A model generated the notes under the pieces. It was not told where the DNA came from and did not search any database. It saw only the letters and a program-made list of their open reading frames with translations. Positions 1,229 through 45,580 of a DNA stretch of 64,000 bases are shown here, one piece after another. Origin of the DNA: Chloranthus sessilifolius. Lineage: Eukaryota > Streptophyta > Magnoliopsida > Chloranthales > Chloranthaceae. Position 1 is the first letter of the stretch. The number at the start of each line of letters is the position of its first letter. The DNA is taken from assembly GCA_021018995.1 (NCBI GenBank), contig CM037588.1, positions 35,461,000 through 35,524,999 of the forward strand, written 5' to 3'. The position numbers were made by a program, and so were the translations under genes.

Positions 1229-1246
1229 TGGTGACTCTGCTGGGGA
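1229..1246 (+). promoter_or_regulatory. Primer binding site of Tat-A
   Basis: TGGTGACTCTGCTGGGGA starts two bases after the LTR end. It resembles the tRNA-Arg primer site known from Ogre elements. The Tat-C counterpart differs at two positions. It is where reverse transcription of the element would be primed. Confidence 0.75.
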
Positions 1247-1366
1247 TAGCTTGTAGAGCTCTTTGAAATTTTGCCTTTTATTTTTATTTTACTAACCATT
1301 TTGATATTTTTTTATTATTTTATTTTATTTTTGTTTTACTTACCCCTACTTTTATGTCATTTACGA

Positions 1367-20353: not shown

Positions 20354-20424
20354 TGGTAGCTCTTTACTTATGTATGTATCTAATTAAGTCTTAACCTATT
20401 CCAAGCGCACAATAGAAATTGTAA
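20354..20424 (-). mobile_element. Remnant of the 3' LTR of Ath-E
   Basis: About 70 bp matching 49209-49290 (CTTTACTTATGTATG, TTAAGTCTTAAC, AAGCGCA...AATAGAAATTGTAA). It stops where Tat-C LTR sequence begins; the joint shares AAAATT with both partners. Confidence 0.85.
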
Positions 20425-20811: not shown

Positions 20812-20819
20812 TATTTATA
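20812..20819 (-). promoter_or_regulatory. TATA box of the Tat-C 3' LTR
   Basis: TATAAATA on the minus strand in the same context as the other three Tat LTR copies. Confidence 0.7.
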
Positions 20820-23571: not shown

Positions 23572-23807
23572 TGGCACAACTATTATGTACAGTAAAATAG
23601 TGCAGAACAGTGCCTGGAAGTTAGCTCGTGGGGTGGGGGCCACCTTTCAACTTGGCGCAACTATTAGTTGTGCCAGGCTTAAAGTCTGGGAGAATTAGCC
23701 TGGTGCAACTAATAGTTGCGCCAGGCAAAGTTATAACTGGTGCAACTATTAGTTGCGCCAGGCCAATTCTGGGGAGAAATGGCCTGGCGCGACTAATAGT
23801 CGCGCCA
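23572..23807. repeat. Palindrome array, 4 clear copies plus one decayed (Tat-C 3' LTR, U3)
   Basis: Copies at 23653-23675, 23701-23723, 23738-23760 and 23785-23807, with starts 48, 37 and 47 bp apart. A broken copy is at 23572-23592. It is the same array as 45036-45286 in the other LTR and lies upstream of the TATA box on the element's strand. Confidence 0.9.
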
Positions 23808-24189
23808 AATCCCTAGGGGGGGCCTACTTGAAATTACCTCCCTGCCCTCCGAGTTTGGATTGCCATATCTTTTGATATATACCTTTGATTGGGGCGATTC
23901 TTAGACTGTTGGAAAGTTGATGACCTCTAGTCTTTAATGGTATAAGAGTTGGTCACTGTAGAGGGTCGTAGCCAGTTCTGGTGCACCCCTCCTCCTTCTT
24001 TCCTGGGAAGGTTAGGTTAGGGTTCGGAAAGGGTTCTAAGGGTCGGGGTTGGTTTCTAAAGATTTGGGGTAGGTTCCTAAGGGTTTAGGGTGATTCCTAA
24101 GGGTTCCATACATGCCATCAAAAGCTCAGAATTGCACCTCTCTCGAAAAGTGTTTCGATCGGGCCTTGGGCCAAATTTGGGTGTCTACA

Positions 24190-25480: not shown

Positions 25481-27476
25481 AGTTCAAATTTGTTTTTGAT
25501 TTTTCTATCATTTTATGCGATTTTTTTTTTTGAATTTTTCAACAGTTATTTTATGGGATTTTTTTGAATTTTGAAGCTACTATCTTATGTGAATGTTTTT
25601 GGCTTTTTGAAGTGAATTTTTTGGAATTTTGGAGTTATTATTTTATGTGAATTTTTTTTGGAATTTTGTCATTTTATGTGGATTTGTCTCGTGAATATTT
25701 CCGGTTCTCTGTGGGGATTATAGTTTTTGGATTTTCCTTGTGTGTAGGACCGGGGTGCTCGTTGACCTTGGCCCGTTCTTATTTTAGCATGGCTTTCTTG
25801 GCAAGTCGAAGGATGACCGAAATGTTGCCTTGGGAGCGCGTGCATCTGTCGGAAGTGACAGAACAAACAAACAAAAGGAAGTGGAGGGGACCGGTCTTCC
25901 CATTTGGCCTGTACCAGGCCCAAAACCCGGGCTGAGTGCCTGGCGCAACAAATAGTTACGCCAGGCCCCTATGGGCCCAAAGATAGCCTGGCACAACTAT
26001 TAGTTGCACCAAGCTAAAGGAAGGTGAAAACTTGCCTGGCGCAACTATTAGTTGCGCCAGGTTTGGCTAGGAGATTTAAACAGCCCGAACTCGGGCTGGG
26101 GGGGAGCATTTTGAATTTTTCCCCCTCTTCCTCTTAAAAACCGAAAACCGCTCCCCCCCCCTTTAGGGTTCCTTTATATTGCCTCTACGCATGCCCTATT
26201 GCTGTTACTTTGCTTGGGGATCGATCGCGGGCTTACGCTAGACCAAAGACCCCTTCTACTTCATAAGATAATCATTTAAAACTCTTTTTCTTGATTTTTT
26301 TTTCTTGCTTTTTCATGCAAATATGATTATGATCTTGCATTTCTAGATGACAAGTGGTTCATTTCCGTTGTAAGCATGTTGACTGATGATGTGTGAATGA
26401 ATGATGCCTTATTTTTGTGCTTTTATGGGTTTTATTGGTGCATAATATATATATATATATATATATATATTTATTTATTTATTTTATTTTTATTTTTTAT
26501 TTTTATTTGTTCTTAGAAAAGAGGTTTTTTTTTTGTTTGTTTTTTTTCGTTTTTATCTTAAATGCAAGGCTAAGATTTTACATATCATTTTGAAAGCTAG
26601 TTGGGAGAAAGGGAATTTTTAGTTTTCTTTCTCTCTTTTTTGAAAGATTAATTAAGAGAGTAATGATTTTTTTTGGTTTCGTATATTAATCCAGGAGAAT
26701 GCTTTTCTTTTTTTTGATTTTTTTTTTCTTCAATTAATTAAGGAAAACGATTCTACCTTCGATATATATATTTTTTTGTTTTAGTTTTTTTTTGTAAAAG
26801 AATGATTTTTTTTTATTCTATGGTCATAAAAGGAGGGATTTTTTTTTTGAAAGGAGAATTTTTTGATTTTATGGACCATGACGAAAAGGATTTTTTTTTT
26901 TGGTTTTTAACTTTTGTTTTTCTAAACATAAAAGAAGGATTTTTTTTGTTTCCTTTTTGATAAAGAAAGGATTCTTTTTGTGTTTTTATGATTTTATAAG
27001 ATGATGGAATTGTTTTTTTTGTTTTTAGTTTTTCTAAACGGAAGGACTTCTTTTTTTCCCTTTCTCTCCTTTTTTTGTAAACAATAAGACTGCTTTTTTT
27101 TTTGTATCTCTCTTTTTTGTTGCTGTTGTTTTTTTTTTGTTTTGTTTTTTTTTTAACATAAAAGAAGGGCTTTTTAATTTTGATGATGATTTTTTTTTAT
27201 TTCAACTAGCTTTTATTTTGAAACATAGAAGAAAAGGGAAATTTATTTTATTTTACCTTATTATTTTAGGATAGAAAGGAAGGGATTTTTTTTTGCAATT
27301 TCAATCTAAACAAAAAGGATTTATTCATTTTATTATATATATATTTTTTTGTGTGTATCTTTATTTTGACAATGAGCGGAAAGAGGATGAGCACACTTAC
27401 CTTCCCTTGATGTTGTGCACATAAATGGTTCCTTTGCCACTGATTTGCTTTGATGTGACTGTTTTGTTGCCCCAGC
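25481..27476. other. AT-rich, T-rich spacer upstream of the PMD gene
   Basis: Low-complexity DNA. On the plus strand it is extremely T-rich at 26270-27370 with many runs of 7-10 T, and it has an (AT)n tract at 26445-26470. It contains the first internal palindrome array. No supported gene. It may hold the promoter or 5' untranslated region of the plus-strand PMD gene. Confidence 0.6.
25941..26059. repeat. Palindrome array, 3 copies at exactly 48-bp spacing (upstream of PMD gene)
   Basis: Copies at 25941-25963, 25989-26011 and 26037-26059. The last is a perfect inverted repeat including the outer CCTGG/CCAGG bases. The 25-bp spacers are unlike one another in sequence. Confidence 0.92.
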
Positions 27477-29951
27477 ATGGCGGGCGGTGATGAGCACATT
27501 CCCGAGGAGGGCCACAGGGAGGGACCCGAGATAGTGTGTGGTCCGCGGGGAGAGCAGTTCCTCTGGGTGGAGCGGAGAGCGGGCCCATGACTCGAGATGG
27601 AGGGTGAGGCCACCCGGGTCGGCCTCCTCTATCAACAGCACACCCATATCTCAAATTTTGGAATAGCAGGCAAGGTAAAAGATAGGTTCAGTTTCTTTCC
27701 TTTGCGCAATTTTTTTTCTTTACCTCTGCCATCTGATGTGTATTTCTTTGGGTGCAGGAGCTGCCAAACATTGTGTTCCGCGGGGGGTGGCTCGACTTCC
27801 ACGAGTTCTACCTTTATGTCCCCCCTGTGATGAAAGTCTTGTTGGAGCATGTGGGCTTTGGGGAGTTCTTGTCCTGCCCAGGCATGAGGGCTGATGCCAC
27901 CTATCTGAAGGCCCTCATCGGGAGGTTTCATCCCGAGACCATGACGTTCCACATGCTGTACACCGAGTTGACACTGACGCCCGTTGATTGGGCCATGATT
28001 ACTGGCATTAGGATAGGGGGAGTCCCGATATCTACTTTGGTGGTACCGAGCTAGGAGGACATTATTCGGTTGATCGGGGCCTATCCTCCTCGTGGGCAGA
28101 CCCATGGCACAGAGGTCAAGATGTCTTGGCTGGCCTCCCTCTTTTTTGCTGATGAGTTGGTGGACCTGGGCCAGCCAGATCGGGTGCTTTACATTGCGCC
28201 AGAGCGGGCGATCGTTTTAGCTCGCATCACCCTCCTACTCCTATTGGGCAAGACCCTTTTTACAAATGCCAGCGGGGGACGAGTCAACCTGGCCTTGTTG
28301 AGTGTGATGGATAATTGGGGCAACGTTCCCAGGCATGACTGGGGAGGGGCGGGATACGCCTGGCTGATGTACAACTTATCTCGAGTTATGACCGGGGACT
28401 CGAAGTCTGTCGGGGGATTTTGGGCCGTCCTGGAGGTAATTCCTCACCCCTTTGCTTTTGCAATCACTATCCTCCATTCATCATCATTCATTTTTTTTTT
28501 CGACTGATCCATTTATGTTACTGACCTGCTCTTGTGCCATGCCCCTTTTTCAGGTATGGGGATATCACCATTTTCACTCTGAGCGCCCGCTCCTTTTCTC
28601 GGAGGTGCTCACCTATCCCCTCCTCAGCAACTGACATCAGGCCCGAGGCCGTGACGTGGGCCTAAAGCACCTGGAAATGGGCCTAAGATCCCAGCTTGAT
28701 TTGATGGTGCATGAGCAGGTGATAACTTTTCAACCTTTGTTTACTTTCAGCTTGGACATTTCTTTTGATTGAGGTGTTGCTTACTTGGTCTCTCTCGCTT
28801 TTTGATTTTGAGCAGATCCTCCCTGATCCGTACCTGACATCCCCTTTCTAGGACCGAGTAGCCATGGGTGCCTCCCGCCAATTCAGCAATCGCCACATCA
28901 TCTTCTTCTATGGTGCGTGGGCCAGATGCTACTACTATCTAGGAGAGCGAGTGGTGCACCAGTTTCAGGGCTATTATGCCGTACCCGTAGACCCCCCGGC
29001 TGACGTTTGGAGTCCCGCTGGCAGTATTGAGGAGTTGATAGCGACCTTCTTCAACAATGGGTTCCCCATTCGCGCTCTCCATGTGCCTGGGGATTATCAT
29101 GGCTGGTACGAGTGCCTACCCTACCGGTTCATCCTGCCGTGTTTTGTTCCTAGCGCTAATTTCCTTGCTTTCGGGGGCCCCCTTGGTTAGGTAACTCCCT
29201 CTCAGCTTGAATTAGCTTCCCCTTCACTTTTACTCGGCCTTGGTAATATCTGAATAGATTCTTATCTGGTTCACAGTTTGATCTAGGGGATGGTTCGGAT
29301 GGTGAAGGTGGGCCGAGTGCTGCTGACATGTCAGGGGTAGATCCCTCTGGTGCTAGTCCTTCTGGTGTGGGTCCCTCGGGCGAGGGTTCATTAGGTGCTG
29401 GTCCGTCTGGTACTTCTCAAGCGAGTGTCCCTGGTGGTGGTCCGTCTGTAGCCTACGGGACCTTTCAGCATCTTGACAATGGCTTCTTCTCAGACCTATG
29501 TTCTGACGTAGATCGACAGGCACGGGTCTCTGCCGAGGCGGCTCACGTTCCTCCTCTTGAGGTGGTCCCTGGGGTAAGTTTTCTGATGAGCCACTTCTCC
29601 TTCATTTTAGTTTCCTTCTGCATAGGTTTTCAGGGTTGTTCTGACAACTGAATAATGTATCACAGGACTTCAACTCAGCCATGGAATATGCGGAGTACCA
29701 TCGTCATCTGGCAAAACTTCGAGAGGTGGAGACGGTGAGTACATGGCTGCTCGACTCCTCTCGTTCTTTTCATTATCATTGGCCCTTTGACTGATCTTGT
29801 CCTCGACTGTGTCTTGTAGCGTGCCCGGGCTTAGGAGTCGCATACCCTGCTCAGTAGGATTTCACAGGCGTGGTCTAGAGTGGGGGCTATGAGGACTTAT
29901 CAGAGCTCCTCTCGCCGTCGCAAGAAGTCCAAGGGGGCGAGCAAGGAATAG
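27477..29951 (+). pseudogene. Plant mobile domain (PMD) gene, seven exons, antisense to Tat-C
   Basis: Host-like gene of the PMD / aminotransferase-like family (MAIN and MAIL1 relatives). Exons: 27477-27674, 27758-28435, 28554-28718, 28816-29190, 29277-29573, 29666-29734, 29820-29951. All six introns (81-118 bp) are GT-AG and all joints are phase 0, giving about 637 codons. Exon 1 carries LLYQQHTHIS; exon 2 carries the PMD signature RFHPETMTFHMLYTELTLTP and later TLFTNASGGRVNL and WGGAGYAWLMYNLSR. Exon 5 is rich in PSG repeats; the end is basic (SRRRKKSKG). In-frame stops at 27588, 28052, 28632, 28849, 29188 and 29832 kill it. Most look like CAG-to-TAG or CGA-to-TGA changes. It lies between integrase and 3' LTR on the strand opposite the element. 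Confidence 0.85.
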
Positions 29952-30411
29952 GCTTTTAGTTTTTTGCTTTTTAAAACTCAGTATTTTGGATTTGGATTCA
30001 GGCATTATGGGATGGATGATATATATTTTTTTTTTGGACATGTATCTTTTGAAAATATTTATTTATTATTTTTTTTAATGCCTTTGTTTTGCGTTTATGC
30101 CATGGTTTCCTTGCCTTCTATATTTGTTTCTTTCCAGGATGTGTCGGCCCGTTGCCCCCCCTTTTTTGAAAAAAAAAGCGGCCTTTTGGGTTGCATGCCT
30201 CAATGTAGGATCAATCCTCAAGTAGGTCTGAGACGGATGTAGAGTGGGCCTTTTGGGTCACATGCCTCAATGTAGGATCAATCCTACACATAACAAAATA
30301 ACTCACAAACCATTGATGGTCGGAAGTGCCGATATAAATAAAACCAACAAAAAGGGCAGAACTCCCCTCCTCAGTTCTGTCTTAAGATGGCTGTAGACGG
30401 GGATTTTAATC
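29952..30411. other. Spacer between the two antisense genes, with a short tandem duplication
   Basis: T-rich DNA at 29960-30110, then two copies of a block GGCCTTTTGGGT...CATGCCTCAATGTAGGATCAATCC at about 30180-30222 and 30247-30289 (offset about 67 bp). No gene recognised. Confidence 0.65.
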
Positions 30412-30530
30412 TAGCACAACTAATAGTTGCGCAAGGCTAAAATACCAGGGAAATTACACTAGCGCAACTAGTAGTTGTGCTAGGCCAAATTGGGGGAATC
30501 AATGCACTAGCGCAACTATTAGTTGCGCCA
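30412..30530. repeat. Palindrome array, 3 copies at exactly 48-bp spacing (upstream of the DUF7745-like gene)
   Basis: Copies at 30412-30434, 30460-30482 and 30508-30530. The array ends 30 bp before the first in-frame ATG of the next gene (30560). Several copies have TAGCGC at the left edge in place of TGGCGC. Confidence 0.92.
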
Positions 30531-30559
30531 GGTTTGACCTGGGAGCAGTGGGGCCTTAT

Positions 30560-32197
30560 ATGCCCGAGTTGGCCCAGAAATTATTTCTTTTTTATTTGAC
30601 TTGGCTCCTTTGGCCGGCCTCTTTTGCTCTTATTTTCCCAAGGGGGGTCCATATCCCTACATTGATTCTTATCTTCCCAAAAGATCCTTGTACGTTCATG
30701 GATCTGCCTCCTAACCCTCCCTTACGTGGAGGGCCCGAAGCCAATGTATCCTCATTGTTGGGCCTGGGGCCCATGTTCTTGGAGGCTTGGTTTGGGAGTC
30801 TGAACCAGAGTGAGCTCGCCGACTTGGAGAGCCTTGGGCTATCTCGCCTTCCTTCCTTCCTAAAGATTCCTCTTCGATAGGAACTCCTTCATGCCGCCGC
30901 CTCGTGCTGGGATGTGAACCTCCATGTATTCCGTTTTGGGAAGCGGGAGCTGACCCCAACCCTCGAGGAGCTATCCAATCTGTCTGGCCTGAAGCTTCAC
31001 AAGGACCTTGCCAGAGTTATGCCTAGGCCAGGGTATTCCAGATCCATTCACCTTACTCTAGGTTTGAAGAAATCTGAGTATGAGAAGAGCCTCATCGGGG
31101 GGCCCACAAGGTATTCGCTGAAATTCCTCAAAGAACCTTTGGGTGATGAAAGCCTCCAAAGATTGCCGGTTAGTAGTGTCTTTAATGTGAAAGCTCTAGC
31201 ACTTGGTCTCATCTCTAAAATCCTCTTCTACGCCAGGGGAGAGAGCTTCTCATTAGTAGTTTGTGATATTTTGATGGAGCTAGAGGCGGGCCGGTCCATG
31301 ATGCACTTGGTGCTTGCCGAGCTGTACCGATGCCTTGATTCTTTTGCCTTGGGCAAGGTGGAGGGCCTTCGGGGATGCCCCTTGTTGCTCCAGGTCTGGC
31401 TGGGTGAGCATTTTGACATTTTGGGGCCCGTGCCTCACCTTTATGTTGCTCGAGGCGAGGTGGCCCAATGTTTTTTGGGTAGATGCCACTTACTTCCCCA
31501 GGGTGATACGTCGGCTCTGAAACTTTGGTTGGTCGATGCTGAGCTGACATGGAGGCTTCCTTGCTTAGACCGGACCTTCTCGGTGATTCATTCTAGAGAC
31601 CATGAGGGCATCACCCTCCTAGGACTGACCGGCAGCACCTTCTACTTCTCATTCCAGGTGTTGCATCAGTTTGGCTGCCCTCAGCAGGTGCCTTGTGAGG
31701 CCAGACCCCCTTTATGTGATTTGATCTTTTCTAGGGGATCCTCTGGGGACATAGATCGGATTGCTGCTCTTTGGGAGACGTGTCAGTCGACACTGATGTG
31801 TGATTTTGAGCAAGGAGACTCAGCCAGAATTTCTCCTGACTATGGGTCCTGGCTGTTAACTGAGTGGCCTGCTGCAAATGACCGGATTTTGTCAGAGATC
31901 ATTGATACTGGAGGCCCCTAGCCAAAGAAAGAGGCGGTGCTCCGGACCCGTATCGAGCTATTGGAGGATGAGAAGAAGGTTCTGCAAGAACTCTTGGCAT
32001 GCGAGAGGGATAGAGCAGGCACAACGGAGAGCGAGGTTCTCCGTTTAAAGGGATCACTGAGCATTTCTTTTGGAGCTGCCGACTCTTCTCGGAAGAGGTT
32101 CAAGAGCCTGCATGGTCGTTGGCTGACTGAGAGGAATGTCCGAGAGGATGATCTTTACGCTGAGATTAGCGCTTTGAAGCGCGAGCTGGGCCGTTGA
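30560..32197 (+). pseudogene. DUF7745-like plant transposon-associated protein, antisense to Tat-C
   Basis: One reading frame of about 545 codons with two in-frame TAG stops (30878 and 31919). A shorter start at 30698 (MDLPPNPP) is possible. The core has VFRFGKRELTPTLEELSNL and then AELYRCLDSFALGKVEGLRGC followed by PLLLQVWLGEHF, the pattern of plant DUF7745 proteins often annotated near retroelements. After the second stop the same frame continues as a strongly predicted coiled coil (RIELLEDEKKVLQELLACER...LKRELGR). Both stops fit CAG-to-TAG. Unlike the PMD gene it is intronless. Function unknown; the family assignment is from memory of the pattern. Confidence 0.65.
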
Positions 32198-33648
32198 CTC
32201 CTTCCTGCACATAGAACTTTTTGCACAGATCATATACACAGGAAAAAAAGGGGCGTAGAAAACCCCTTTACAGATACACACACATTTTTGGTATACATAT
32301 TTTCTTTATTTATTTATTATTTATATATTTTATCTTTTTTGTTTTTTGCTTTATACTTGTAAAAAGTAAAACATGCTAGTCATCACACCGACTATTTTTT
32401 GAGATGTGGTGTAAGTGATGCAAAAGGCAGTTATATACATCTATACAGATCTATTTTTGGTTTATGTATTATCTCCCCTCTCTTTTTTGTTTTGCCTTAA
32501 TCATTAGGTGATACTTTGGGGAATCCTGGGTCTACTTTTTTGAGCATGGTCGAACCCTTTCTTTGGAATCGGACCTGGGTGGGTCTCCGGATTTTTCCAA
32601 GGGCGGAATATGGATCCCCTTGGATTGAGTTAAACCTTTCTCCTTGCCTCGGGTCATATGTTTGACGGTGCGGGTTTCACAAAGACAATTATGGTCGGGA
32701 CCCGATTTGAACTAGCATCAGCAGCCCAGTCGGACAAGAGGGTACAGGAAGAGTAACAAAAGGGTTCCTTAAACATCAATCTTCTCAATCAGTCCAAACC
32801 TTTCTTTTTCAATTTTTTCTCTCTTTTTTTTTTTATCTCCCTTTTTTTACCCATGGCGCCCTTACGGATTTTCACCACGCCCATGGGTTTAGCTCTCTTA
32901 CCCCAAGCACCCTTTTGGGTTTTCACCTGGTCCGCACAAGCTCGCTGTTTTTACCCGTAATGCCCTTTCGAGTTTTCACCACGTCCATCTTGCTTTGAGC
33001 TTGTATTTTTATTTTATTTTATTATTATTTTTTTATTCTTTTTATTTTCTTTTCTCTTTTCAACAGCCACGACATTGACCTTGATTCTGTCATAGCCGGC
33101 TGGATGGGGTTCTGGTGTCGTCTCATGACTCAGCTCATGTTGACTTAACAGATATTATGATTGCTTGTAAACTCAAAAGAGGGCTTTTTTCGAGGTGTAG
33201 CTTGGCCATGGGTCAGGTTAGGATTTGAAGGTATGCTGGGCTAAAAGGGTTTCCTTGATACGACTTTAGTTTTCTCAACATACTTTCTTCCTGGGGGTTT
33301 TACTGTACATGCCCCATAATTCTTCTATATTTTTTATTCTTTTTGCTTCATTTTAGGCAATCTCTTTTTGAGGTTTTACTTTTTCAATTTTTTTGGATTT
33401 GATAGTAACTTTATGCACATGCATCTTTTCTCTCTCTCTTTTTTTTTTTGGTATATGCACACATATATATTTTTTTTGGGGGGGAATGGGTTTATTGAAA
33501 GAAAGGCCCAGGCTCAAATGGGGTAGCAAAGGATATCATCATTTTTAGGGATGTTTTTGGACTACTGTGCTTGGAATGATGGCCTCTTTTGGGTGATTCT
33601 TAAGCAGTCATGTATATGTTTTATCAATACTTACCTTATTGCGATAGA
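32198..33648 (-). other. Tat-C 3' non-coding region next to integrase
   Basis: 32520-33600 aligns (reverse strand) with 11380-12440 of Tat-A, for example the repeated words TTTCACC(A)CG.CCATG and AGCTCGCTGTTTTTACC. 32198-32520 is AT-rich and would be the 3' end of the antisense gene. No conserved ORF. Confidence 0.75.
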
Positions 33649-34960
33649 CTAAGAGTAGAACCATCGGACATATCTAGCGTTGATGGGCTCAGGAAGATGA
33701 TCTCCGTCCATGGTGGCGAGGCGGATGGCGTATCCTGGCAGCACTTCTCGAATGACAGATGGTCCTTCCCATTTCGGCTTAAACTTTCCTCTCGGATCGA
33801 CGTGGAGGGATAGGAAGATCTTCTTCAGCACAGTGTCTCCTACCTTTAGATCTCGACCGCATACACGTTTATTGTAAGCGCGTACGATTCTCCCCTGGTA
33901 AACTTGAGTGTGACACAAGGCTAGGAGTCTCTTTTCGTCCAATAAGTTCAGCTGATCAAAGCGTGATCTTTCTCATTCTGCTTCGGGTAAGCCTGATTCC
34001 ATGAGGATTCAGAGTGAGGGTACTTCAACCTCCATCGGGAGGACCGCCTCGGTTCCATACACAAGGGAGAATGGTGTTACCCCTGTAGTAGTACAGATCG
34101 ATGTTCGGTAGGCCCACAAAGTAAATGGCAGCATTTCACTCTAATCTCGATAAGTGAGGACCATTTTCTCAAGGATGCGGACGACTGTCTTGTTTACAGC
34201 TTCCACGGCTCCATTAGTTTGAGGCCGATAAGGGGATGAGCGATGGTGCTTGATCTTGTATTGCTCGCAGAAGTCTCGGATGCACTTATTCGCAAAGCTT
34301 TTACCGTTGTCCGTGATGATATCTTTGGGTACTCCAAATCGGCACACAATATTATTCTTGAGAAACTTCTCAACGTGACTAGCCATGATGTTGGCATATG
34401 ACACCGCTCCTACCCACTTGATGAAGTACTCAATGGCGACGAGGATGAACCGATGTCCGTTTGATGCTTTCGGATTAATCATTCCGACAACGTCAAGGCC
34501 CCAGGTAGCGAATGGCCAAGGAGTGGTCATGCAATGAAGATCAATGGCAGGAGCGTGTATTAGACTGGAGTGTTCTTCACATTTGTAGCATTTTTGAACA
34601 TGTTTATAGCAATCAGATTCCATGGTGGTCCCAAAGTATCCCTGTCGTAAGATTTTCTTAGCGAGCATGTGACCGCTGACGTGGGCTCCGCATACTCTCT
34701 CATGGATTTTTTTCATAATATTGACCGCTTCACTTTCAATAAGGCACCTGAGTAAGATGCTATTGTATGATCGCTTGTAGAGGCATTCCCCACAAATGAC
34801 GTAACCTGTCGCTAAACGTTGAATGGTTTGTTGGTCTGTCTTGGATGTACCCTCTAGGAAAGTTAGGGTCTTGAGGAAATTCTTGATATCTAAGAACCAA
34901 GGTGGCTCATCATCAAACTTTGTAGGTTCTTCAATCTGGAGGCAGAAGGCCAGCTCATTC
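33649..34960 (-). pseudogene. Integrase of Tat-C (nearly intact)
   Basis: Read from about 34960 to 33649. The zinc-binding region is complete (HERVCGAHVSGHMLAKK...CYKHVQKCYKC). The core has GLDVVGM, ITDNGKSF and NGAVEAVNK, so D-D-E is kept. The C-terminal end is DGDHLPEPINARYVRWFYS. It belongs to the 312-codon open frame at 34141-35079, then a TAG at about 34141-34143 replaces Trp of YRDWSEML, and further stops lie around 34000. It is the best integrase in the window. Confidence 0.9.
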
Positions 34961-35511
34961 CTCTGCTCAATCATGATTGGCTTCATCTCAACACCATAGG
35001 GGATTTCAATCATTGACGCCAAAGTTGCTAATGTGTCAGCAAAGCGATTCCTTATCCGGGGGACGTATGAGAAAGTCACATCTTAGAAGTAAGCTATTAG
35101 ATCCTCGAGGTGTTCATGATAGGGGATCAGTTTCTCATCTTTCGTCTTCCAGTCACCATTCATCTGGCATATGATTAATTGTGATTCGCCAAATACTCAA
35201 AGGAGAGTTACATTCAGATCGAGAGCCACCTGCAGACTAGCAGCGTAAGCTTTGTACTCAACCATGTTGTTAGTGCAAGGGAAGTTGAGCTTGATAGAGA
35301 CCGGTACATGGGATCCTTTCGGTGAAATCAGGATGGCGCTAACTCTTTGGCCCTCGACATTTGCTGCCCCGTCAAAATGTGTTACCCATGATTCTTCTGC
35401 TTCTTCAGCATCGTCTTTCTTCATGAACAAGATATCTTCATCTAAGAATTCAGTTCTTAACGGCTCATAGTCAGGTAAAGGATTATCAGCAAGCACCTGC
35501 CCCTTGATCAA
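34961..35511 (-). pseudogene. Archaeal-type RNase H of Tat-C
   Basis: Contains THFDGAANVEGQ, NNMVEYKAY and RFADTLATLASM, the segments of the second RNase H typical of Tat elements. A TGA (CGA in the ancestor) falls before VFGESQL, where GDS has become GES, so one catalytic Asp is changed to Glu. A TAA replaces Gln before DVTFSYVP. Confidence 0.82.
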
Positions 35512-37114
35512 TTTCTAAGTGACATACATAATGTTGAATTTAGACAATAAAAGTTGTCATCGTGCAGTCCGCCCAGTGAGAGCTAGCTTCTCGAATAGGT
35601 ACTTCAATAGGCCCATTCGAACCAAAAGCAGAACTGCCTGGGATAGCAAATAGTGGCGGAGCCTTTGAGTATCCCATACAAGAGCCAGGCATGCTTTCTC
35701 CAAATGAGAGTAGCACGTCTCGTAATCAATAAACTTCTTGCTCAGATAGTAAATGGCTTGCTCTCTTCTTCCTGTTTCATCGTGCTGCCCTAAAACACAT
35801 CCCATCAAAACTTCCATCGTGGAGAGATACATCAAGAGTGGTCTCCCTGGCTCAGGTGGTACCAAAACAGGTGGATTAAGGAGGTAGCTTTTAATTTTTT
35901 TGAACACTGCTTGATAATCGTTGTTCCATTCAACGGGCAAATTCTTCCTTAGTAACTTGAAGATCTGCATGCAGATGGAAGTTAGTTGTGCAATGAACCG
36001 ACTGATATACTGTATTCTACCTAGAAACCCTCTAACCTCTTTCTCAGTAGACGGTGGTGGCATTTCAGTCATGGCTTTAACTTTGATTGGGTCGACCTCA
36101 ATCCCCCTCTTGCTGACGATGAACCCTAGCAGTTTCCCTGACATTGCACCAAATGTGCACTTCTGTGGGTTCAGACGTAGTGGATACTTCCTCTGCCTTT
36201 CAAACAACTTTTGAAGGTTTACTAGATGGTCACTTCACTCCGGTGACTTTTCTATCATGTCGTTGACATACACTTCAATCTCTCGATGCATCATGTCATG
36301 GAATTGTGCAGTCATAGCTCTCTGGTATGTTGCACCGGCATTCTTCAGCCTGAATGGCATGACTCGATAGCAAAAGGTTCCCCAGGGGTAATGAACGTTG
36401 TCTTCTCGCGATCAACCTCTGCCATTTTGATCTGATTGTATCCTGAGAATCCATCCATAAATGAAAGCATCCCGTGCTTAGCTGTGTTATCAACCAAGAT
36501 GTCGATGTGTGGTAGTGGGAAATCATCCTTTGGGCTTGCTCTGTTCAAATTATAGAAATCGATGCACATGTGGACCTTTCCGTCCTTCGGCACAGGTACG
36601 ATATTGGCTAGCCATTGTGGGTACTTGGATATCATGAGAAACCCCGCGGCATACTGCTTGATGACCTCATCTTTGATTTTCAGCATCCACTCAGGTCGGA
36701 GACGTCTCACCTTCTATTTGATTGGCTTCACATCAGGGTAGAGGGGCAACTCATGCTCGACCAAATCAGTATCCAGACCAGGCATGCCCTCGTACAACCA
36801 AGAAAAAACGTCTTGATATGACTAAAGGAAGTCAATCATGCTTTTTCTTTCCTCAGGAGACAGTGACGTTCCGATTTTAGTTATCCTAGGAACCTCCTCA
36901 GTTCCTAGATTGTCATCTTCGGTCTCTTCGATAATGGGGGTAGGGCCATACTCATAGTCGGCAAATCGGTCAAGGAGGTCATTGGGGAGCTCCTCGAAAG
37001 GGACATCCTCATCCAGACTCGTGATCCCTACCTCTTCTTGTATTTCTACAGGGAAGGGGTCGATTTCACGTGAGATGGGTATTTTGATTAAGGCATCCTT
37101 TTGTGGGACATTTT
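35512..37114 (-). pseudogene. pol: Reverse transcriptase and RNase H of Tat-C
   Basis: Read from 37114 downward. N-terminal leader PFPVEIQEEVGITSLDEDVP; palm PEWMLKIKDEVIKQYAAGF, MCIDFYNLNRASPKDDFPLP, SFMDGFSGYNQIKMAEVDREKTTFITP. The catalytic box is YVND (36259-36270) in place of YVDD, so the second-to-last Asp is lost. RNase H: GRPLLMYLSTMEVLMGCVLG and DYETCYSHLEKACLALVW (35557-36207 open). A stop after PIK at about 36716 is CAG-to-TAG. Confidence 0.9.
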
Positions 37115-37418
37115 CTGGAATTTCAAATGACAATATTTTTGGGCTTTAGATTTTTTCAATGTTTTTGAGATTTTGTGTTTTTTGTATGTTTTTAAGATTT
37201 TATATTTTTTTCATGTTTTTGAGATTTTTATTTTCTTCGGAGAAGGACCCTTGGCAAGGCGGGTTTGTGTATATACAAGGTATTGCCTACCAAGGGCTTA
37301 TCTCACTTTTTATAAGTTGTTTTTTTTGGGAAGCGGGTGCCAAATGTTAGGCCACTCCCCGCTTCCAGGGTTTGGGGTAAAGATGCCCAGTTGTGTACCT
37401 GAGGGGCTGCTTCTTTAC
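37115..37418 (-). other. Probable intron between pro and RT of Tat-C
   Basis: On the minus strand the donor CAACAG|GTAAAG is at 37418 (alternative CAG|GTAC at 37398) and the acceptor TTGAAATTCCAG ends at 37115, giving about 304 or 284 bases. It has in-frame stops. The stem-loop is at 37248-37256 / 37288-37296, with one mismatch in the stem. Confidence 0.6.
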
Positions 37419-38775
37419 CTGTTGGGATGGAGGGAGATAGCTGATATGGCTCATTGGAGTCAACCTCCATCATATTGATCCCCATTTCGTCTGAGATCAT
37501 GTCCTCAAATGATACCTCGGTTTTATGGTGATTCAACACAGGGGGGTTTGTTCAGATACCGACCGTCGTTCCTCGAAAAGGGATAACGCGGCCAAGTCTA
37601 TCTCCAAGCTGGGAAGGGAGATCTGGGGATTGGTGGGATGGACTGGGGCTATGGGTTTGTGTGGGGTCAAATGGGTTGCCCCATTTCGATCGATCTTTAC
37701 GACCCCTGCACTGATAAAGGAATCCCTAATGTGCGGCCTAGGGCGAGGCTTCTCTTCTATGTTGATTCCTCGAGCTCTTACAACCGCGGCGACCCTGGAT
37801 TTTTCTGTGGCCTCTCGGACCTCTTCTTCTGTGGGCTTGTATCCTAGCCCGAATTTTACTTTCTGTCCCTTAGCCACAACTGGCACTCTTCTGCCTTGTA
37901 GTTTGGATCCTAGACCCCTTCCTTTCTGATAGCCCCACTTTTGGAGCATTGCCATTGCCGCTACCATACCGCCTCCCATTTTAGACATGATGCCCTCAAT
38001 GGGTTCTAGGAGTATCGCCGACACCTCGTACTCGAAACTGTGGAGGTCGACGTCCTCAGCGGTATGTGGTATATCCAGCATGTTGGGTTTCTCCACACTG
38101 TTGGTGGCCTTCTCTTTCTCACTATGCCCATCTCCAATGATCGTGATAATCTTATGCCCAGATGTAAATTTGAGTTTTTGGTGCAATGTGGAAGGTATGG
38201 CTCCGACTTCATGTAGCCACGGGCGCCCTAACAACAAATTTAATGAGGATTTAATATCCATGACCTGAAACAAGATGGAAAAGGTCATTGGCCCTATCAA
38301 CAGCTCAAGATCAACTTCTCCCATTATTTCTCTCTTGGTATTGTCAAACCCTCTAGCACTGGTTCTGGTGGGCCTTAACATGCACGGATCAACCCCAATC
38401 TTGGTAGCAGTTCTCAACGGGCATATATTCAATGCAGACCCATTATCGATTAGTACCAAGGGGATAATTATATTTCCGAACTCAACGGTTATATTTAAAG
38501 ATTTTGAGTGGCTACCTCCTTCCTCAGGTAAATCGGCATCAGAAAATGAAATGACATTTAGAGCCATCACTTGACCAATTATCTGCTCAACTTCATCTGG
38601 GCTAACTTAGAGTGATACATGCGCATTTTTTAACACCCCCATTAAGGCTTGGAAATGGAGTGGGGACATCATCAACAGGTCACATACAGTGATATGGGCA
38701 AGCATTCTTCTCAGCTGAGTCTCCAGTATATGTTCCCGACTCATCTTTTCTAAGGGGTTCACCACGCTATCTTTC
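37419..38775 (-). pseudogene. pro: Protease and G-patch region of Tat-C
   Basis: Long open frame 37533-38570. The active-site segment is IIPLVLIDNGSALNICPLRT (DNG codons near 38440-38450); flap and C-terminal region follow (FQVMDIKSSLNLLLGRPWLH). A G-patch domain follows at about 37895-37975 (MLQKWGYQKGRGLGSKLQG), seen in some retroelement proteases and likely to bind nucleic acid. The frame closes at TGA 37533 and homology continues to the intron donor (NHHKTEVSFEDMISDEMG). Confidence 0.87.
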
Positions 38776-41700
38776 TTTCCTTCGGGTTGGGCCTGTGCTG
38801 CTACTGGTATTTCTTGCTGCTTTGATATCCTCCCTGATCTGGTAACAAAATCTACTGCCCCTTCTTTACTACTACTTCTGGCATTGATATCTATTTGCTC
38901 GTAGCTTAGCGGGACCTGATGAGGATCATATGTGGGTCCCGAGAGGTGGAAGGGTGTGGCTGCCGGTTGTTGAGGTACTTGTACTATCGGCTTAGGAGGT
39001 GTGGGAAATACTTGATCCACCTTGGTGGCAGCGAGTTGGGTGGAAAGATTAGGCCAAATGGGGGTGGTGAAGCTTGAGGGTGGTGGCATTGGAGGGAAGG
39101 AGGAAAAGTAGGCCATTGATAGCTAGTGGGTGTTTACGACAGATGGGGGGTTTGATGGACCGTCAGGTAATTGACCGGGGTGGTGGAATTTGTCGGTGGT
39201 TGAATTGGGGATGATGGAGTGGGCGCAGGCCATTGATAGCTGATGGGTGCAGGTGTTGGATTGGGGGCCTGGTGTCTTAAAGGGTAACTGATGGGGGTTG
39301 TGGTGTATGGTGGTAGTAGAAATGGGGCGGGCCAGTTGATGTTGATGGTTTATAGGGTAATTGGGGGTTGTGGTGCATGGTTGGTATGCATTGATATTTA
39401 CATAACTGATGGGTGTGGTGGATGGAAAGTATGCCCGAAGATCTAAAGGTTCAAATTGTGGGGTTGGGTTGGAGAAATATTCAGACAAATTTAGGGGTTC
39501 AATTACCCCAACAACCCTTTCTTCGTCATTCATCGGCAATGGTGCCACATAATTTTCTCGACCACTGATATAATCGGATGGGTCAAATTCAAATTCCTCC
39601 TCATCTTCTATCATTCCGATGGTAGGTCTGGGACTTGCTCCTCCGATAGGATGTGGGGCTAGTGGCACTTAGTGAATATTAGCATGCTGAGAGGGTGTAG
39701 GGGGAATGATTTTCCCGACATCGATCAAATCCTGGATGGCATGCTTTAATGGGAAGCAACGATCAGTAGGGTGACCCGGACCTTGATGAAAATTACAGTG
39801 GGTATTTGGGTCATTTGCATTCCTTGCCCATTCCCCATTCTTTGCATCTGCTCAAGCCTAACTGGTGCTAGTGGGGCTGCCTGAAATTGGAACGGGACAG
39901 TATTATTATTGGTCCTGGTATTGACTATGTTCTGGACATCCCCCCTTGTTCTCTTCTCATTCCTCTGTTTTGAAAATCTTCTAACCCCACTAGGTCCACT
40001 TGGTATGTTCTTATTCAGAAGCCCCTCCCTGATGGCATCCTCACATAGGTTGGCGTTTCTCACCAGATCAGCAAAGCTGGTTTACTGTTGATATACCAAA
40101 AAGTCTAAAATCACTGGCAGAGTGTTCTTCGAAATCATCTCTATCTGTTCATCATCAGGTATTCTGCTCCTGACCTGAGCTGCCAATGCTCTCCATCGCT
40201 CCAAGTAGTCGTTGAAGGTCTCGTTCTGATTCTGCTTCAAACGGGCCAAGTCGGACTTACGCGGCTCAATGTCTATACTGTAGACATACTGTTCTTGAAA
40301 GAGATGCATCAAGTCCCTCCATGTTTTCATCATAGACGGTTCTAATGATGTGAACCATCTCAAAGCTGGCTTGGTCAAACACTTTTGAAAGACATTTATC
40401 AGTAGTCTTTCGTCTTCCTCGTATTGGCACATGTCCCCGTAGTAGGACTTCAGGTTTGCAATAGGATTGCCTGTGCCATTATATTTGTCGAAGGTTGGCA
40501 TTTTGACTTTGGGGGGCAGGGGGACTTCAGCGAACAAAGATAAGTTTGTGAAGTTTGTGGCGTGGATTTTGACACCACCCATTTTCATCAACTGTTTTTA
40601 TATTTTGTCTAGCTGTTCTTTCAGCTGCTCTGACTCTTTTGATACAAGGGTTGCTTTCTCGGCCGTCAGCTGGACTTCACTCTAGGCCACCAGAGGATGG
40701 GCAATTATGGGAGGGGGGTTGCGACTGGTCAAAGCCTCAGCATAGGCCCCACTATTTCTGATCTCGTCCTCCTCATACTGCTGATCTATGTAGGGTGCAG
40801 TGAGGACGAGATTCCCAACCTGTTGCTGCATGGGTTGGATGGGAATGACATGAGCAGGGGTTGGGTGAGCCCATTGGGGGTGAGGAAAGGTTTGTTGGGT
40901 GATGTGAATTTGGTGTTGAGGTGGGACTGATAGGGCCATTGGGTATGGGGAAAAGTTTAGAGATGGCCTTGGGGTTTGGGGGATGACATGGGTTTGACCC
41001 AGCTGTGAAGGTTGGGTTAAATGTTGGGGGTATTATGGAAGTTGTGAGTGTGGGGTTTGGGCTTGGGCCATGAACCCTTGATCATTCTCGGTCATGGGCC
41101 ATTGATAGGTTTGGGCCATGGACCCTTGGTAGGTTTGGGCCACGGGCCCTTGATGGGTCTGGGCCAATGGGCCAGGGTAGGTTTGGGCCAAGGGCCCTTG
41201 ATGGGTTTGGGCAAAGAGCCCTTGGTGGGTTTGGCCCAGTGGGTCTTGATGGGTCTGGGCCATGGGCCCTTGGTGGGTATTGCCCAATGGGCCTTGATGG
41301 GTATGGGCCATGGGTCCTTGATGGATATGGGCCATGGGCCCTTGGGGGGGTCTGGCCCAATGGGCCTTGATGGGTCTGGCCTAATGGGCCTTGGTGGGTT
41401 TGGGCCATGGGCCCTTGGTGGGTCTGGGCCATGGGGTATTGAGCCATGGGGCCCTGGGATATGTGGAAAAAGGGGGTTTGGGCTAATGGGCCTTAGGGTA
41501 TGTGGGAGTTTGGAGATTGGGCCATGTGGCCTTGGGCTAAGTGGGTAATGGGGGTTTGGGTGTTGTGGATTATGGGGGGTTGATGAGGGTCATGGGGGAG
41601 TGAGGCATGGAGATTGGCAAGGGTATGGGAAGGGTTCATGGGGTGTGGAGGAGAGGGGGTGTTTTGAGAAGCCTTCCACATGGAATAGGCTTGAACCATC

Positions 41701-42296
41701 TCCTCCATCATGGTCATGGAGGAAGGGTTGGATGGAGATGGGGGATTTAAGGGGTGATGGGGTATAGATGGGATGGAGGTGGTGGAAAAATTGGGCATGG
41801 CCCCAGTATAATCGAGCATGGACACGGTAGGTGGGGGGGTATGGGGTGGATGAGGGGATGTATTGGGTATGTTTTGGGATGATGGGGGGCATGATGAGGA
41901 GGGATGAGGAAAGTTGGGCATGACCCCGGTAAAAATGGGCATGACCCGGATGGATGGGGGATTTTACCGGGGGTTGGATAGGGCAAAAGTGGTGTATGTG
42001 AATGTGGGTGGATCGGGTCTATAGGGGAATGATGGGAATTGGGGCATGGATGTGGATTGGGAAAATGGGTTTGGCATGGGCATGGTTTGGGAAAAAGATG
42101 GAGAATATGGGGTTGGATTTTGGATATTTCGGGGGCTATCGGTTGGGAAAATGGGAGCGCCAAATGGGCCGGTAACGATAAAAGGGGGTTGGGTGAGGGG
42201 GATGGTGGAAAAGACTTCTCCTGAATGGGAGTTGGTTGGAGAATGTGGCGGGGATGAGTCGGAATCGGCGTAGGCCAGGTCCACTACCCACGACAT
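38776..42296 (-). pseudogene. gag: Gag of Tat-C
   Basis: Start MSWVVDLAYADSDSS at 42296, shared with Tat-A. Pro/His/Ser-rich N-terminal region with a TAA at 41964 in the same frame, then an 8-residue repeat region (41060-41450), then the Gag core (40082-40591 open: PTFDKYNGTGNPIANLKS, ALRWFTSLEPSM, ETFNDYLERWRALAAQV). The knuckle CNFHQGPGHPTDRC is at 39756-39797. The tail carries several NYxxYxPP and LDLRAYFP segments. Better preserved than Tat-A but still broken by stops and shifts. Confidence 0.88.
41060..41450 (-). repeat. 24-bp coding minisatellite in Tat-C gag (about 15 units)
   Basis: Encodes repeats of the type THQGPMAQ (variants THQGPLGQ, TYPGPLAQ, TYQGSMAQ). About 15 units, roughly twice Tat-A. 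One internal shift separates the first units (41370-41447 frame) from the rest (41033-41335 frame). Confidence 0.85.
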
Positions 42297-42786
42297 TCTT
42301 TGGGAGCGGGTCGGGTGAGGGTGCCTTGGATAAGGCCCAAAAATCCTCCTCTTTCTTCCCCTAGGGGACGACGGAGGGCAAGATGATGTCGTTGTGCCGG
42401 CACCACAAACTATATATATTTGGGTTTTTATTATGTATATTTTTTGAATTTTATGAAAACTTTTTTGAAAAAAAAAACCAAGGTTCCGAGGCCTTGGAAT
42501 TCCCTTTTCGGGTGGCTCTCGTACCTTAATTCAAGATCCGCGGCTATAATTTCAAGGGACTTCGAAAGAATCGAAGGAGAACCTTCGATCTATTGAAGGC
42601 ACAAAAATCAAGGCAAACGACCCGATCCCTCGAAATGAGCCAAAAAGAAGTTGCCTTCTCTTGACCGGCGGGGGCTTATTAGGTGTCGGAGATGGCGAGG
42701 CCTAAACAAGGCACTATGCGCACTGATCGGGGAACTCGGGAGGTGGAAAGGGCCAAGGATTCGGGCTGGGTGCTGCTAAACAGACC

Positions 42787-42952
42787 TGGCGCAACTAATA
42801 CTTGCGCCTAGGTTGTAGGGGAGAAATTTTACGCTGGCGCAACTATTAGTTGCGCCAAGATAAAATCTTAGAGTTTAAAGCTGCCGCAACTATTAGTTGC
42901 GCCAGTTATAAATTTCAGTGCTTTTACACTGGCGCAACTAATACATGCGCCA
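42787..42952. repeat. Palindrome array, 4 copies at 47-48 bp spacing (Tat-C leader)
   Basis: Copies at 42787-42809, 42835-42857, 42882-42904 and 42930-42952. The second is a perfect inverted repeat. The array lies about 490 bp upstream of the gag start, the same relative place as in Tat-A. Confidence 0.92.
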
Positions 42953-43475
42953 GGCAAAAACTGCCTCTCCAGAATAGAAAACAGCAGCCACTAATGCCCG
43001 AAATGTGTCTCTTTTTTTGGTTTTTGTAGAAGCTAGGCTTCCGAGAACTGAGCTATTTTTTTGGTGATCAATTCTCTCCTCACCACACCTAAAGGATTGA
43101 GTACGGTATAACTCGCTAGCGCGCTCTCCAAGGGTTTTAAGCTTCGGAATGGGAGCCCACCCGATATACCTCCAGCGCAAGCGCTTTCTTAGATACTAGG
43201 TGGGCTGAGACTTTTCTGGATCATCACCACTAGGGGCAGCCACCATACTAAGACCCGGGTATTTGTATGTGTGCCTAACCCAACCCCTTTGAAAAATCTA
43301 CCCCGCAAAACAAATTAATTAAGCTCCCTAACTTGGTTCAATTTTAATTTTTTTTTTCAAAGCTTTTCTCTTTTTTTGGATGTTTTCTTTAGTTCAAAGA
43401 CCGGGGGTGATTATCTTGTGCCGCCACTACAGATCGGCGTCCACTGTTTGGATATGAATGTAAAAAAATGACGGG

Positions 43476-43893
43476 GCCAGTCAAGTGACTAGGCGGGAAA
43501 TATAAAGTGCTGAAACTTAAAGCCAAATTATAAAGGAAAGTAAGAAGGTGCCAGTCAAGTGACTAGGCAAAAATTGCTGAAATTTAAAGCGAAAACATAG
43601 GCATGAGTAAAAAAAGGTGTCAGTCAAGTGACTAGGCAAAAATTGCTGAAATTAAAAGCCGAATCATAGGGGTAAGTGAGAAAGGTGCCAGTCAAGTGAC
43701 TAGGTGAAGATTGCTGAAATTTAAAGTGGAAACGTAGGGGTGAGTAAAAAAAGGTGCCAGTCAAGTGACTAGGTAAAAATTGCTGAAATTAAAAGCCGAA
43801 TCGTAGGGGTAAGTGAGAAAGGTGCCAGTCAAGGGACTAGGCAAAGATTGCTGAAATTTAAAGCGGAAACGTAGGGGTGAGTAAAATGACTTA
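43476..43893. repeat. Six tandem repeats of 68-74 bp in the Tat-C leader, alternating types
   Basis: The word GCCAGTCAAGTGACTAGG (with variants) starts at 43476, 43550, 43619, 43687, 43756 and 43824. From the second copy on, two unit types alternate: one continuing TTTAAAGYGGAAACGTAGG, the other TTAAAAGCCGAATCGTAGG. The real repeat is therefore a dimer of about 137 bp. Confidence 0.85.
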
Positions 43894-44001
43894 ATCGGAG
43901 GGGTGTGTACAAAAAAAACAGCAAAAATAAAATAAAAAATAGCAATAGAATGTTAGAAAATTTTAAAAAGGCCTAGTTCAAGGGGAAACTCTACTAGCTA
44001 G

Positions 44002-44019
44002 TCCCAAGCAGAGTCGCCA
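44002..44019 (-). promoter_or_regulatory. Primer binding site of Tat-C
   Basis: Minus strand TGGCGACTCTGCTTGGGA, two bases from the LTR end; close to the Tat-A site and to the tRNA-Arg site of Ogre elements. Confidence 0.75.
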
Positions 44020-44745
44020 TCTGTGCAACTATGGGAATCAGGACGATCCCCGTCGCGACGATGCGCTCTCTAATGATAAAAAATATAGAGTCGCCACCCG
44101 GAGCTCTCGGTGTCCCGAGATACCTAGTTTATTTTTATGAGCACCTAAGTACTAAAAATATGACTCTGAATCCGGTCCACACCAAAGGCTCTTGGGTAGG
44201 GGCTTTGGTTATCGATCGAGAAGGTGTTAGGAACCCGATCAACCCGCTTAATACGGTCTCTACAAATGGCCAAAAATAAAACGAAGGGACAGAAAAGAAA
44301 ATAGCTTCCTCTTGCCCAAAAGGGCTTAGAATCCTATTTGTGCCCCTGCGTTCCTACCGAAAATTCGGCGACATAACGGCACAAATGAAAGGCTAGGGAA
44401 TACCAAAAAGAGATAGGAGAAGAAAGGGGAGAGCCGGAGCCCTCGGGCCCTTGTAGCACTACCGGAGAGCCTTGCGTGGCTTGTTTTGATGAGCTCTTAA
44501 AGGCCTTGCATGGTGGAAAATGGTTTTAACTCCTAAGATTTAAAGCTAAGAGTTAGGGAAGGGAGGCTAAGGGATTACACACACCTAGGCTAAGGTTTTT
44601 GATGCAAGAACAAGCTTGAAATGCGGTTGGGAGATTCTGGAATTTGGGTGAAAATAGTGCACAAAAGGGAGGAAGAACTTCTCACTTTGAGCTCTTTCTC
44701 TCTTAAGCAAATTTCTCAACCCCTAAACCAAGGGGTGGGGGGCTC

Positions 44746-44753
44746 TATTTATA
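44746..44753 (-). promoter_or_regulatory. TATA box of the Tat-C 5' LTR
   Basis: TATAAATA on the minus strand; it should drive the genomic transcript of Tat-C. The palindrome array begins about 285 bp upstream of it. Confidence 0.72.
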
Positions 44754-45035
44754 GGAAAAGGGTGGGTTAGGAGGCCACAAAGATGCTAATTGAGGTTAGC
44801 AATTAGGTGATCTCAAATCTAAGGTTTCCTAGGATTTTGAGAGCTTGGAAAGGTGTGAAGGTGGTTCTAATGGTGGATGATGGGGTGAGGCTTTAGGCCA
44901 CTTGGAGGGTTGCACATAGGTAAGGAATGGGTGCAACATAACTATCAAAACACACCCCAAAGGTCAAGGTGGTCAACAAGTCAAACCCCAAACACAAAAT
45001 TTAGGGCAAAATCTCATAGTTACTGTTCATATGCC

Positions 45036-45286
45036 TAGCGCAACTAATAGTTGTGCCAGGCAAATGTATAGTAAAATAGTGCAGAACAGTGCCTAGAAGT
45101 TAGCTCGCAGGGTGGGGGCCACCTTTAAACTTGGCGCAACTATTAGTTGCGCCAAGCTTAAAGTCTGGGAGAATTGGCCTGGCGCAACTAATAGTTGCGT
45201 TAGGCAAAGTTATAATTGGCGTAACTATTAGTTGCGCCAGGAAATTTATGGGGAGAAATAGCCTGGCGCGACTAATAGTCACGCCA
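45036..45286. repeat. Palindrome array, 5 copies (Tat-C 5' LTR, U3)
   Basis: Copies at 45036-45058, 45132-45154, 45180-45202, 45217-45239 and 45264-45286. Starts are 96, 48, 37 and 47 bp apart, the first gap being two units. Copies 2 and 3 are near perfect; the last has the arm variant GGCGCGACTA. Confidence 0.92.
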
Positions 45287-45580
45287 AATCCTTAGGGGGG
45301 GGCTACTTGAAATTACCTCCCTGCCCTTCGGGTTCGGACTGCCATATCTTTTGATATATACCTCAGATTTGGGTGATTCTTGGACCGTTGGAAAGCTGAC
45401 GACCTCTACTCTCAATGGTATAGGAGTTGGTTGCTATAGAGGGTCGTAGCCAGTTTTGGTGCACCCCTCCTCCTTATTGCCTGGGAAGGTTAGGTTAGGG
45501 TTTGGAGAGGGTTCTAAGGGTCGGGGTTGATTTCTAAAGGTTCGAGGTAGGTTCCTAAGGGTTTAAGGTGATTCGTAAGG

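Follow-up and report, generated by a model that had tools for sequence, protein, structure and literature searches.

Regularly spaced palindrome arrays in an Ogre/Tat-type LTR retrotransposon group of Chloranthus sessilifolius, candidate cis-regulatory clusters beside sense and antisense transcription units

Introduction

A stretch of 64,000 nucleotides from Chloranthus sessilifolius (assembly GCA_021018995.1, contig CM037588.1, positions 35,461,000 to 35,524,999; hereafter the window) contains two long terminal repeat (LTR) retrotransposons, elements A and B, in which a long palindrome recurs at nearly constant intervals. The question raised by this locus is whether the regular spacing reflects a function of the palindromes or is only the residue of repeat duplication. 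Our analysis confirms that the arrays are real, widespread in the host genome, located near promoters, and composed of palindromes that are kept better than the spacers between them. Judged from sequence comparison, they are probably DNA-level cis-regulatory clusters bound by a dimeric protein in a group of LTR retrotransposons of the Ogre/Tat type.

Results and Discussion

Palindrome arrays in the window

The palindrome has the consensus YT-GGCGCAACTA-W-TAGTTGCGCC-AR (21-25 bp; written out, YTGGCGCAACTAWTAGTTGCGCCAR). The original prediction, made from the letters of this stretch alone, described a flanking extension CCT/AGG; an extension is present, but it consists of (C/T)T on the 5' side and A(G/A) on the 3' side, turning the 21-bp core into a 25-bp palindrome. 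The 21 bp carry 33.5 bits of information. With at most three mismatches, GGCGCAACTA-N-TAGTTGCGCC matches the window 21 times, close to the 20 or so copies predicted, and is absent from 100 dinucleotide shuffles. There are six clusters, with gaps mostly of 47 or 48 bp, where P1 and P2 are two antisense genes of element B:

2040..2154, plus strand: leader array of element A; three palindromes at 2040, 2087 and 2134 (gaps 47 and 47; 2, 1 and 4 mismatches)
23654..23806, minus strand: U3 array in the other LTR of element B; four palindromes (gaps in window order 48, 37 and 47)
25942..26058, plus strand: array upstream of P2; three palindromes (gaps 48 and 48), TTTAAA 17 nt downstream
30413..30529, plus strand: array upstream of P1; three palindromes (gaps 48 and 48), TTATATG 27 nt downstream
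42788..42951, minus strand: leader array of element B; four palindromes (gaps 48, 47 and 48)
45037..45285, minus strand: U3 array in the leader-side LTR of element B; five palindromes (gaps in window order 96, 48, 37 and 47)

The regular 47/48-bp spacing had been recognized correctly, but at five sites, with the arrays at 2040 and 23654 omitted and the cluster coordinates one base too low (25942, not 25941). Within the window, gaps of 37 and 96 bp are confined to the U3 clusters. The site at 45037 is followed, 284 nt on, by a TATAAAT box, and a weak fifth site (23573, seven mismatches) lies beside the array at 23654..23806. Both outer sites of the leader array of element B contain the variant half GTATTAG.

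Host elements and lineage

Self-comparison of the window shows two elements in opposite orientations, A on the plus and B on the minus strand. Element B is ordered as LTR, primer-binding site (PBS)-like sequence, leader, gag, G-patch, RNase H, integrase, a long 3' region, and an interrupted LTR. The non-coding parts were delimited as follows:

44022..45584, minus strand: leader-side LTR of element B, 1.56 kb, from self-blast, blast ends and sequence; TATAAAT near 44750
44001-44019, minus strand: PBS-like sequence of element B, directly after the leader-side LTR
23505-24105 with 20423-21039, minus strand: other LTR of element B, an interrupted copy, from self-blast
1229..1247, plus strand: PBS-like sequence of element A, just past the 5' LTR, with three mismatches to the typed pattern

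Pfam matches in element B include PF03732 (gag), RT_RNaseH, and rve, with RVT_1 only below cut-off. The gag, RNase H, and integrase matches are of the Ty3/gypsy type, so the host element is not a Ty1/copia Sirevirus. For the additional RNase H domain, the single open piece scanned from the interval separating RNase H from integrase (35200-35514) had no Pfam match. Based on its domains, its size, and the presence of a plant mobile domain (PMD) gene, we assign the element to a putative Ogre/Tat-type lineage.

Copies and spacing across the host genome

The host assembly (2.17 Gb in 32 contigs) contains 9405 copies of the exact 21-bp pattern, compared with none of the reversed pattern used as a control; the exact pattern was not found in viral contigs or in the prokaryote genome collection. 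Half-sites of neighbouring palindromes face each other across a gap of 2-32 nt in 5450 cases and across 33-63 nt in 453, each with zero for the reversed control. Pairs were listed in contig order and are the first in that order, not a random sample. The 50 listed close pairs come from a single contig and have starts separated by 48 bp (24 pairs), 47 bp (20), 37 bp (3), and 38, 46 and 49 bp (one each); 44 of the 50 thus stand 47 or 48 bp apart, the sharp peak that had been expected. A distance of 84 bp, corresponding to 37+47 with a middle site that lacks an exact match, separates 25 of the 50 wider pairs listed, while the others are scattered between 54 and 83 bp.

Across 59 array places comprising 186 sites, 95 of 127 neighbour gaps are 47/48 bp and 11 are 37/38 bp. 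The spacings of 37.4 and 47.5 bp share a common helical phase. The alternative spacing of 37/38 bp, common in U3 only, is one helical turn below that of 47/48 bp (about 4.5 turns). This is suggestive of helical phasing for these two spacings only.

Position of the arrays within elements

Array places were classed by flank similarity in the window and in 20 fetched stretches of 9.9 kb, each with an exact palindrome, taken in listed order from the first 68.13 Mb of one contig (C1); a place counted only if it contained a site with two mismatches or fewer, and stretches L001-L004, which overlap L005-L007, were excluded. All 39 array places match a single Ty3/gypsy group of the Ogre/Tat type, with none unclassed. 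This agrees with the predicted restriction to Tat elements, for places that were found by the palindrome itself. The arrays occupy four homologous positions: U3 (21 places), leader (9), upstream of P2 (5), and upstream of P1 (4); one of these places, L019, contains a single site. Because the stretches were chosen for an exact palindrome, these counts indicate where arrays lie, not how many elements are without them.

TATAAAT follows the last U3 site by 275-286 nt in 17 of the 21 places, TTATATG follows the last P1 site by 26-27 nt in 20 of 21 copies (the window and 20 fetched with a query that covers this stretch), and TTTAAA follows the last P2 site by 10-18 nt in four of five. A core promoter common to all four arrays is not claimed, as alignment scores are at most about one standard deviation above shuffled sequence and the U3-leader score is not above it.

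In a separate observation, the outer leader sites (window 42788-42951 and the arrays in L005-L024) mostly retain a non-palindromic half, GCA[A/T]GTATTAGTTGC.

Antisense PMD genes

Two of the four positions adjoin genes located on the strand of element B opposite pol:

30698..32197, plus strand: antisense gene P1; PMD (PF10536), E 1.9e-13, above cut-off
27477..29951, plus strand: antisense gene P2; seven inferred exons (1914 nt in total) and six GT-AG introns

Two pieces of P2 also match PF10536 (E 7.9e-6 and 0.0016), both under the curated cut-off; the extra PMD open reading frame (ORF) of Ogre elements is therefore seen above cut-off in P1 and below it in P2. A Pfam scan of the P1 and P2 pieces returned PMD, plus DUF7745 in P1, and not the DUF1985 of VANC proteins. 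In the window copy, P1 contains two in-frame stops and P2 is likewise interrupted by stops.

The splice junctions of P2 are intact in 19 of 24 cases across four paralogs. In three of these paralogs, third codon positions diverge by 0.31-0.35 versus 0.09-0.18 elsewhere in the codon, making them roughly 2 to 3.5 times more divergent; L014, the fourth paralog and a close copy, shows less contrast (0.118 versus 0.084-0.089). For P1, the corresponding values in three copies are 0.22-0.25 and 0.11-0.14, with the codon count started at 30700 and the phase assigned afterwards from the open frame. As judged from these divergence patterns, both predicted genes are shown to be under coding constraint. 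P2 is apparently a seven-exon, intron-bearing gene antisense in an LTR retrotransposon, with codon-level constraint between paralogs; its introns may be able to persist because the genomic RNA is the other strand.

The only protein relative found for P1 is a tobacco PMD protein (24% identity), and a sequence search of solved structures gave one meaningless match (E 0.75). An AlphaFold2 model of the longest open P1 piece, built from a two-sequence alignment, had a mean predicted local distance difference test score (pLDDT) of 35.9 and was discarded. PMD-like sequences seem to be very numerous in the host genome, where a first look returned 20277 candidates for PF10536 (117 scored). About 2 kb upstream of one other PMD place is a different palindromic cluster, of the AATCGATT / TTAATCGATTAA type (L057, 700-1230).

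Conservation and duplication

Mean pairwise identity in palindrome, spacer, and flank columns is 0.88, 0.64 and 0.70 for U3; 0.84, 0.68 and 0.67 for the leader; 0.88, 0.80 and 0.75 for P2; and 0.905, 0.746 and 0.867 for P1. Palindromes are thus better conserved than spacers in all four positions, where a minisatellite would have similar identities in both, and the spacers diverge faster, as the original prediction anticipated. C>T and G>A account for most of the changes seen in the palindrome.

The spacers are nevertheless related to one another, as would be expected if the arrays were an ordinary short tandem repeat, in which a 47/48-bp unit was duplicated and dispersed, the period is merely inherited, and the palindrome has no function. 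Within arrays, different U3 spacers are 0.73 similar (0.50 when shuffled), which equals the similarity of the same spacer between elements; the values are 0.69 versus 0.50 for P1, 0.61 versus 0.47 for P2, and 0.54-0.58 versus 0.46-0.51 for the leader. When spacers from the U3, P1, and P2 arrays are compared with each other, they share 0.60-0.65 identity in one orientation (shuffled, 0.49-0.51) and 0.51-0.57 in reverse (0.45-0.46), while leader spacers compared with other arrays in either orientation are only slightly above shuffled (0.51-0.58 versus 0.46-0.49). This relatedness, seen both inside single arrays and from one array to another, means that duplication produced the units and that some of the regularity was inherited from it. 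The original contention that the spacing reflects selection rather than simple duplication does not survive in that form. Tandem Repeats Finder, which calls tandem repeats at two of the six window arrays, fits the repeat explanation as well.

Spacer length separates the positions. Changes of at least 2 nt were found in 1 of 72 P1 and leader spacers compared with 51 of 395 flank blocks (Fisher p 0.0018; the blocks lack independence, and alignment was used for blocks but not for gaps). For P2, measured by alignment, 2 of 9 spacers and 24 of 99 blocks changed, which is no difference, and for U3 the result is reversed (5 of 21 versus 20 of 396), although this comparison is confounded because 37/38 and 47/48 spacings mix and units mis-align. 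A length constraint of the kind predicted is accordingly suggested for P1 and the leader; for P2 and U3, spacers no more constant than flanks are in line with an ordinary tandem repeat. A second measure on 21 P1 copies (20 of the 49 matches were fetched, with a query that included the array stretch) found 5.4% variation in palindromes, 5.7% in flanks, and 14.3% in spacers, so that by this measure palindromes vary no less than flanks.

A repeat with a functionless palindrome does not readily account for the rarity of length changes in P1 and leader spacers or for the distance to a TATA-like box held by most U3, P1, and P2 arrays. Nor does it readily explain why palindromes, though subject to C>T and G>A decay, are better conserved than spacers at each of the four positions. 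In the leader, moreover, palindrome and spacing remain where the spacers barely resemble those of other arrays. We therefore regard this explanation as rather improbable. Instead, it seems that after duplication a constraint kept the palindrome and the length as the units diverged around the palindrome.

DNA or RNA

Alternatively, the palindromes could act as hairpins in the genomic RNA, with a signalling role in packaging, dimerisation, or processing. Each site could fold into a short-looped stem, and all four positions would lie within the genomic RNA. Among the 186 sites, however, pairs changed on both sides number 10 compared with 11.2 expected; eight of the ten still pair, and two are the same symmetric change (A6/T16) in both LTRs of element B. 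Most single changes break pairing (155 of 220, the other 65 yielding G-U), outer leader sites retain a mismatching half (GTATTAG) in most copies, and Rfam has no match in window positions 20000-46000. The pairing test is weak because much of the variation is probably decay after insertion. The pattern of change gives no support to RNA pairing, and we consider a hairpin function very unlikely.

A model for array function

We favour the reading of the arrays as DNA-level regulatory clusters. A dimeric protein would bind each 25-bp palindrome, and the 47/48-bp repeat would hold adjacent bound dimers in a constant geometry. The arrays adjoin what would be transcription units, in the LTR (U3), in the leader ahead of ORF1, and in the proximal promoter regions of both antisense genes. 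Bound protein might act on transcription or on silencing.

Both the information content of the palindrome and its presence in this element group suggest a dedicated factor, and the PMD proteins are natural candidates because arrays lie in their own upstream regions. With one long palindrome arrayed beside each transcription unit, the element offers a concrete candidate target for PMD proteins. The binder may be one of the antisense PMD proteins, acting in trans on elements without PMD genes too. The most specific version, in which an element PMD protein is a dimeric regulator or anti-silencing factor on phased arrays, governing four transcription units as its own regulon and also driving PMD-less elements, is offered tentatively. 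If correct, it would provide a function for the PMD genes of Ogre elements, which is given as unknown in the accessible part of one account (PMC9289625).

Several results weigh against a regulatory role or an element-encoded binder. Four fetched elements (L006, L012, L018 and L022) keep U3 arrays although blast gives no block to P1/P2 from pol to the LTR, so that either action in trans or a host factor is needed. The 3' LTR of element A has no site within seven mismatches, and L066, one of three extra U3 copies fetched, has lost most of its array. A gap of 96-101 bp fits helical phasing poorly, U3 arrays are about 280 nt away from the TATA-like box, and a consistent TATA-like box looked for behind the leader array was not found. 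PMD genes in general do not accompany the palindrome: at 20 other PMD places, the best 20 of 128 PF10536 matches, presumably of other families and not compared with P1/P2, no palindrome with at most five mismatches occurs within 3 kb upstream, and a lone match has six mismatches. The P2 and U3 length tests, the second measure on P1, and the inherited part of the regularity belong on the same side.

The persistence of U3 arrays in elements without detectable P1/P2, together with the leader array of element A, would also be explained if the palindromes were sites for a host transcription or chromatin factor, either used by the element or serving host silencing. Usual plant factor sites carry less information than 33.5 bits in 21 bp, which argues against this alternative, as does the location of all 39 array places in this element group, albeit places found by the palindrome. 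There is precedent in the Arabidopsis PMD proteins MAIN and MAIL1, which are needed for genes with a promoter motif, although the sections available do not show direct binding (PMC7156037, PMC9899485). One half-site 10-mer also lies inside a probe from the AAO3 promoter that is bound by the NAC protein AtNAP, in the excerpt available (PMC4844398), a weak lead that may be due to chance because the probe also contains a CGTG core. A host factor is thus a possible but not the likely binder, and we retain the regulatory-cluster reading with the identity of the protein left as a candidate.

Comparison with known systems

The closest parallel is found in Sireviruses, whose palindromic repeated motifs precede both the LTR TATA box and an env-like gene; elements without this gene also lack the internal copies (PMC2829016, in part). 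Here, too, clusters are placed ahead of the TATA box in the LTR and ahead of an additional gene located 3' in the internal region, and the palindrome occurs in many copies of high identity. However, Sireviruses are Ty1/copia elements with 10-20 bp motifs that, with one exception, have a CGG-CCG core, and the sections available do not state a constant spacing (PMC2829016). The present element is Ty3/gypsy, with a 25-bp palindrome of another sequence that lacks the CGG-CCG core, antisense PMD genes, a leader array, and a 47/48-bp period. The original prediction knew of no named element of this kind. This holds for Tat elements as far as our literature search reaches (no account of such arrays in Ogre/Tat elements was found, with subscription papers mostly outside its coverage), but the Sirevirus motifs had already been described.

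A second parallel is the anti-silencing system of VANDAL transposons, in which an element protein binds an arrayed motif and removes methylation. The short motifs recognized by VANC proteins are arrayed in non-coding DNA, and as far as the accessible text shows (PMC5735166, PMC10398659) these arrays resemble ours in being derived from tandem repeats, non-coding, and embedded in fast-diverging surroundings. VANDALs carry their own sequence-specific factor, to which an element PMD protein would be a candidate counterpart. The differences are that VANDALs encode the transposase VANA, whereas the present element is an LTR retrotransposon; VANC contains DUF1985/DUF287, whereas P1 and P2 pieces match PMD; and the VANC motif YAGTATTAY is non-palindromic and occurs in one orientation, whereas the present arrays are palindromic. 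If an element protein does bind here, the arrangement of a VANC-like factor with arrayed targets would extend to a retrotransposon. The arrays resemble both Sirevirus motifs and VANC target arrays and belong to neither. The leader variant AAGTATTAG has AGTATTA in common with the VANC21 motif of VANDAL21, perhaps by chance.

Like known Ogre/Tat elements with a PMD ORF, the present element is a large Ty3/gypsy element; a PMD is reported in 57% of Ogre elements (PMC6317226, in part). The portions available of two accounts (PMC6317226, PMC9289625) mention neither palindrome arrays nor an intron-bearing antisense PMD gene, and the words "palindrom" and "antisense" were not found in the former. Retand elements have antisense ORFs between pol and the 3' LTR, with tandem arrays, and the antisense proteins have been proposed to be DNA-binding regulators; these contain a TRP28 domain, not PMD, and the text available ties no binding motif to the ORFs (PMC11963269). 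What appears to be new here is the palindromic-array arrangement in another lineage, together with antisense PMD genes.

Additional features of the elements

The gag-pol region of element B contains a G-patch domain (37533-38570, minus strand). In both elements, 68-bp tandem repeats occur in the leader past the PBS-like sequence (1347-1534 and 43504-43886), and 24-bp repeats of the CCCA..GGCCCA.ACCCA.CAAGG type follow the start of ORF1 (3541-3718 and 41058-41560).

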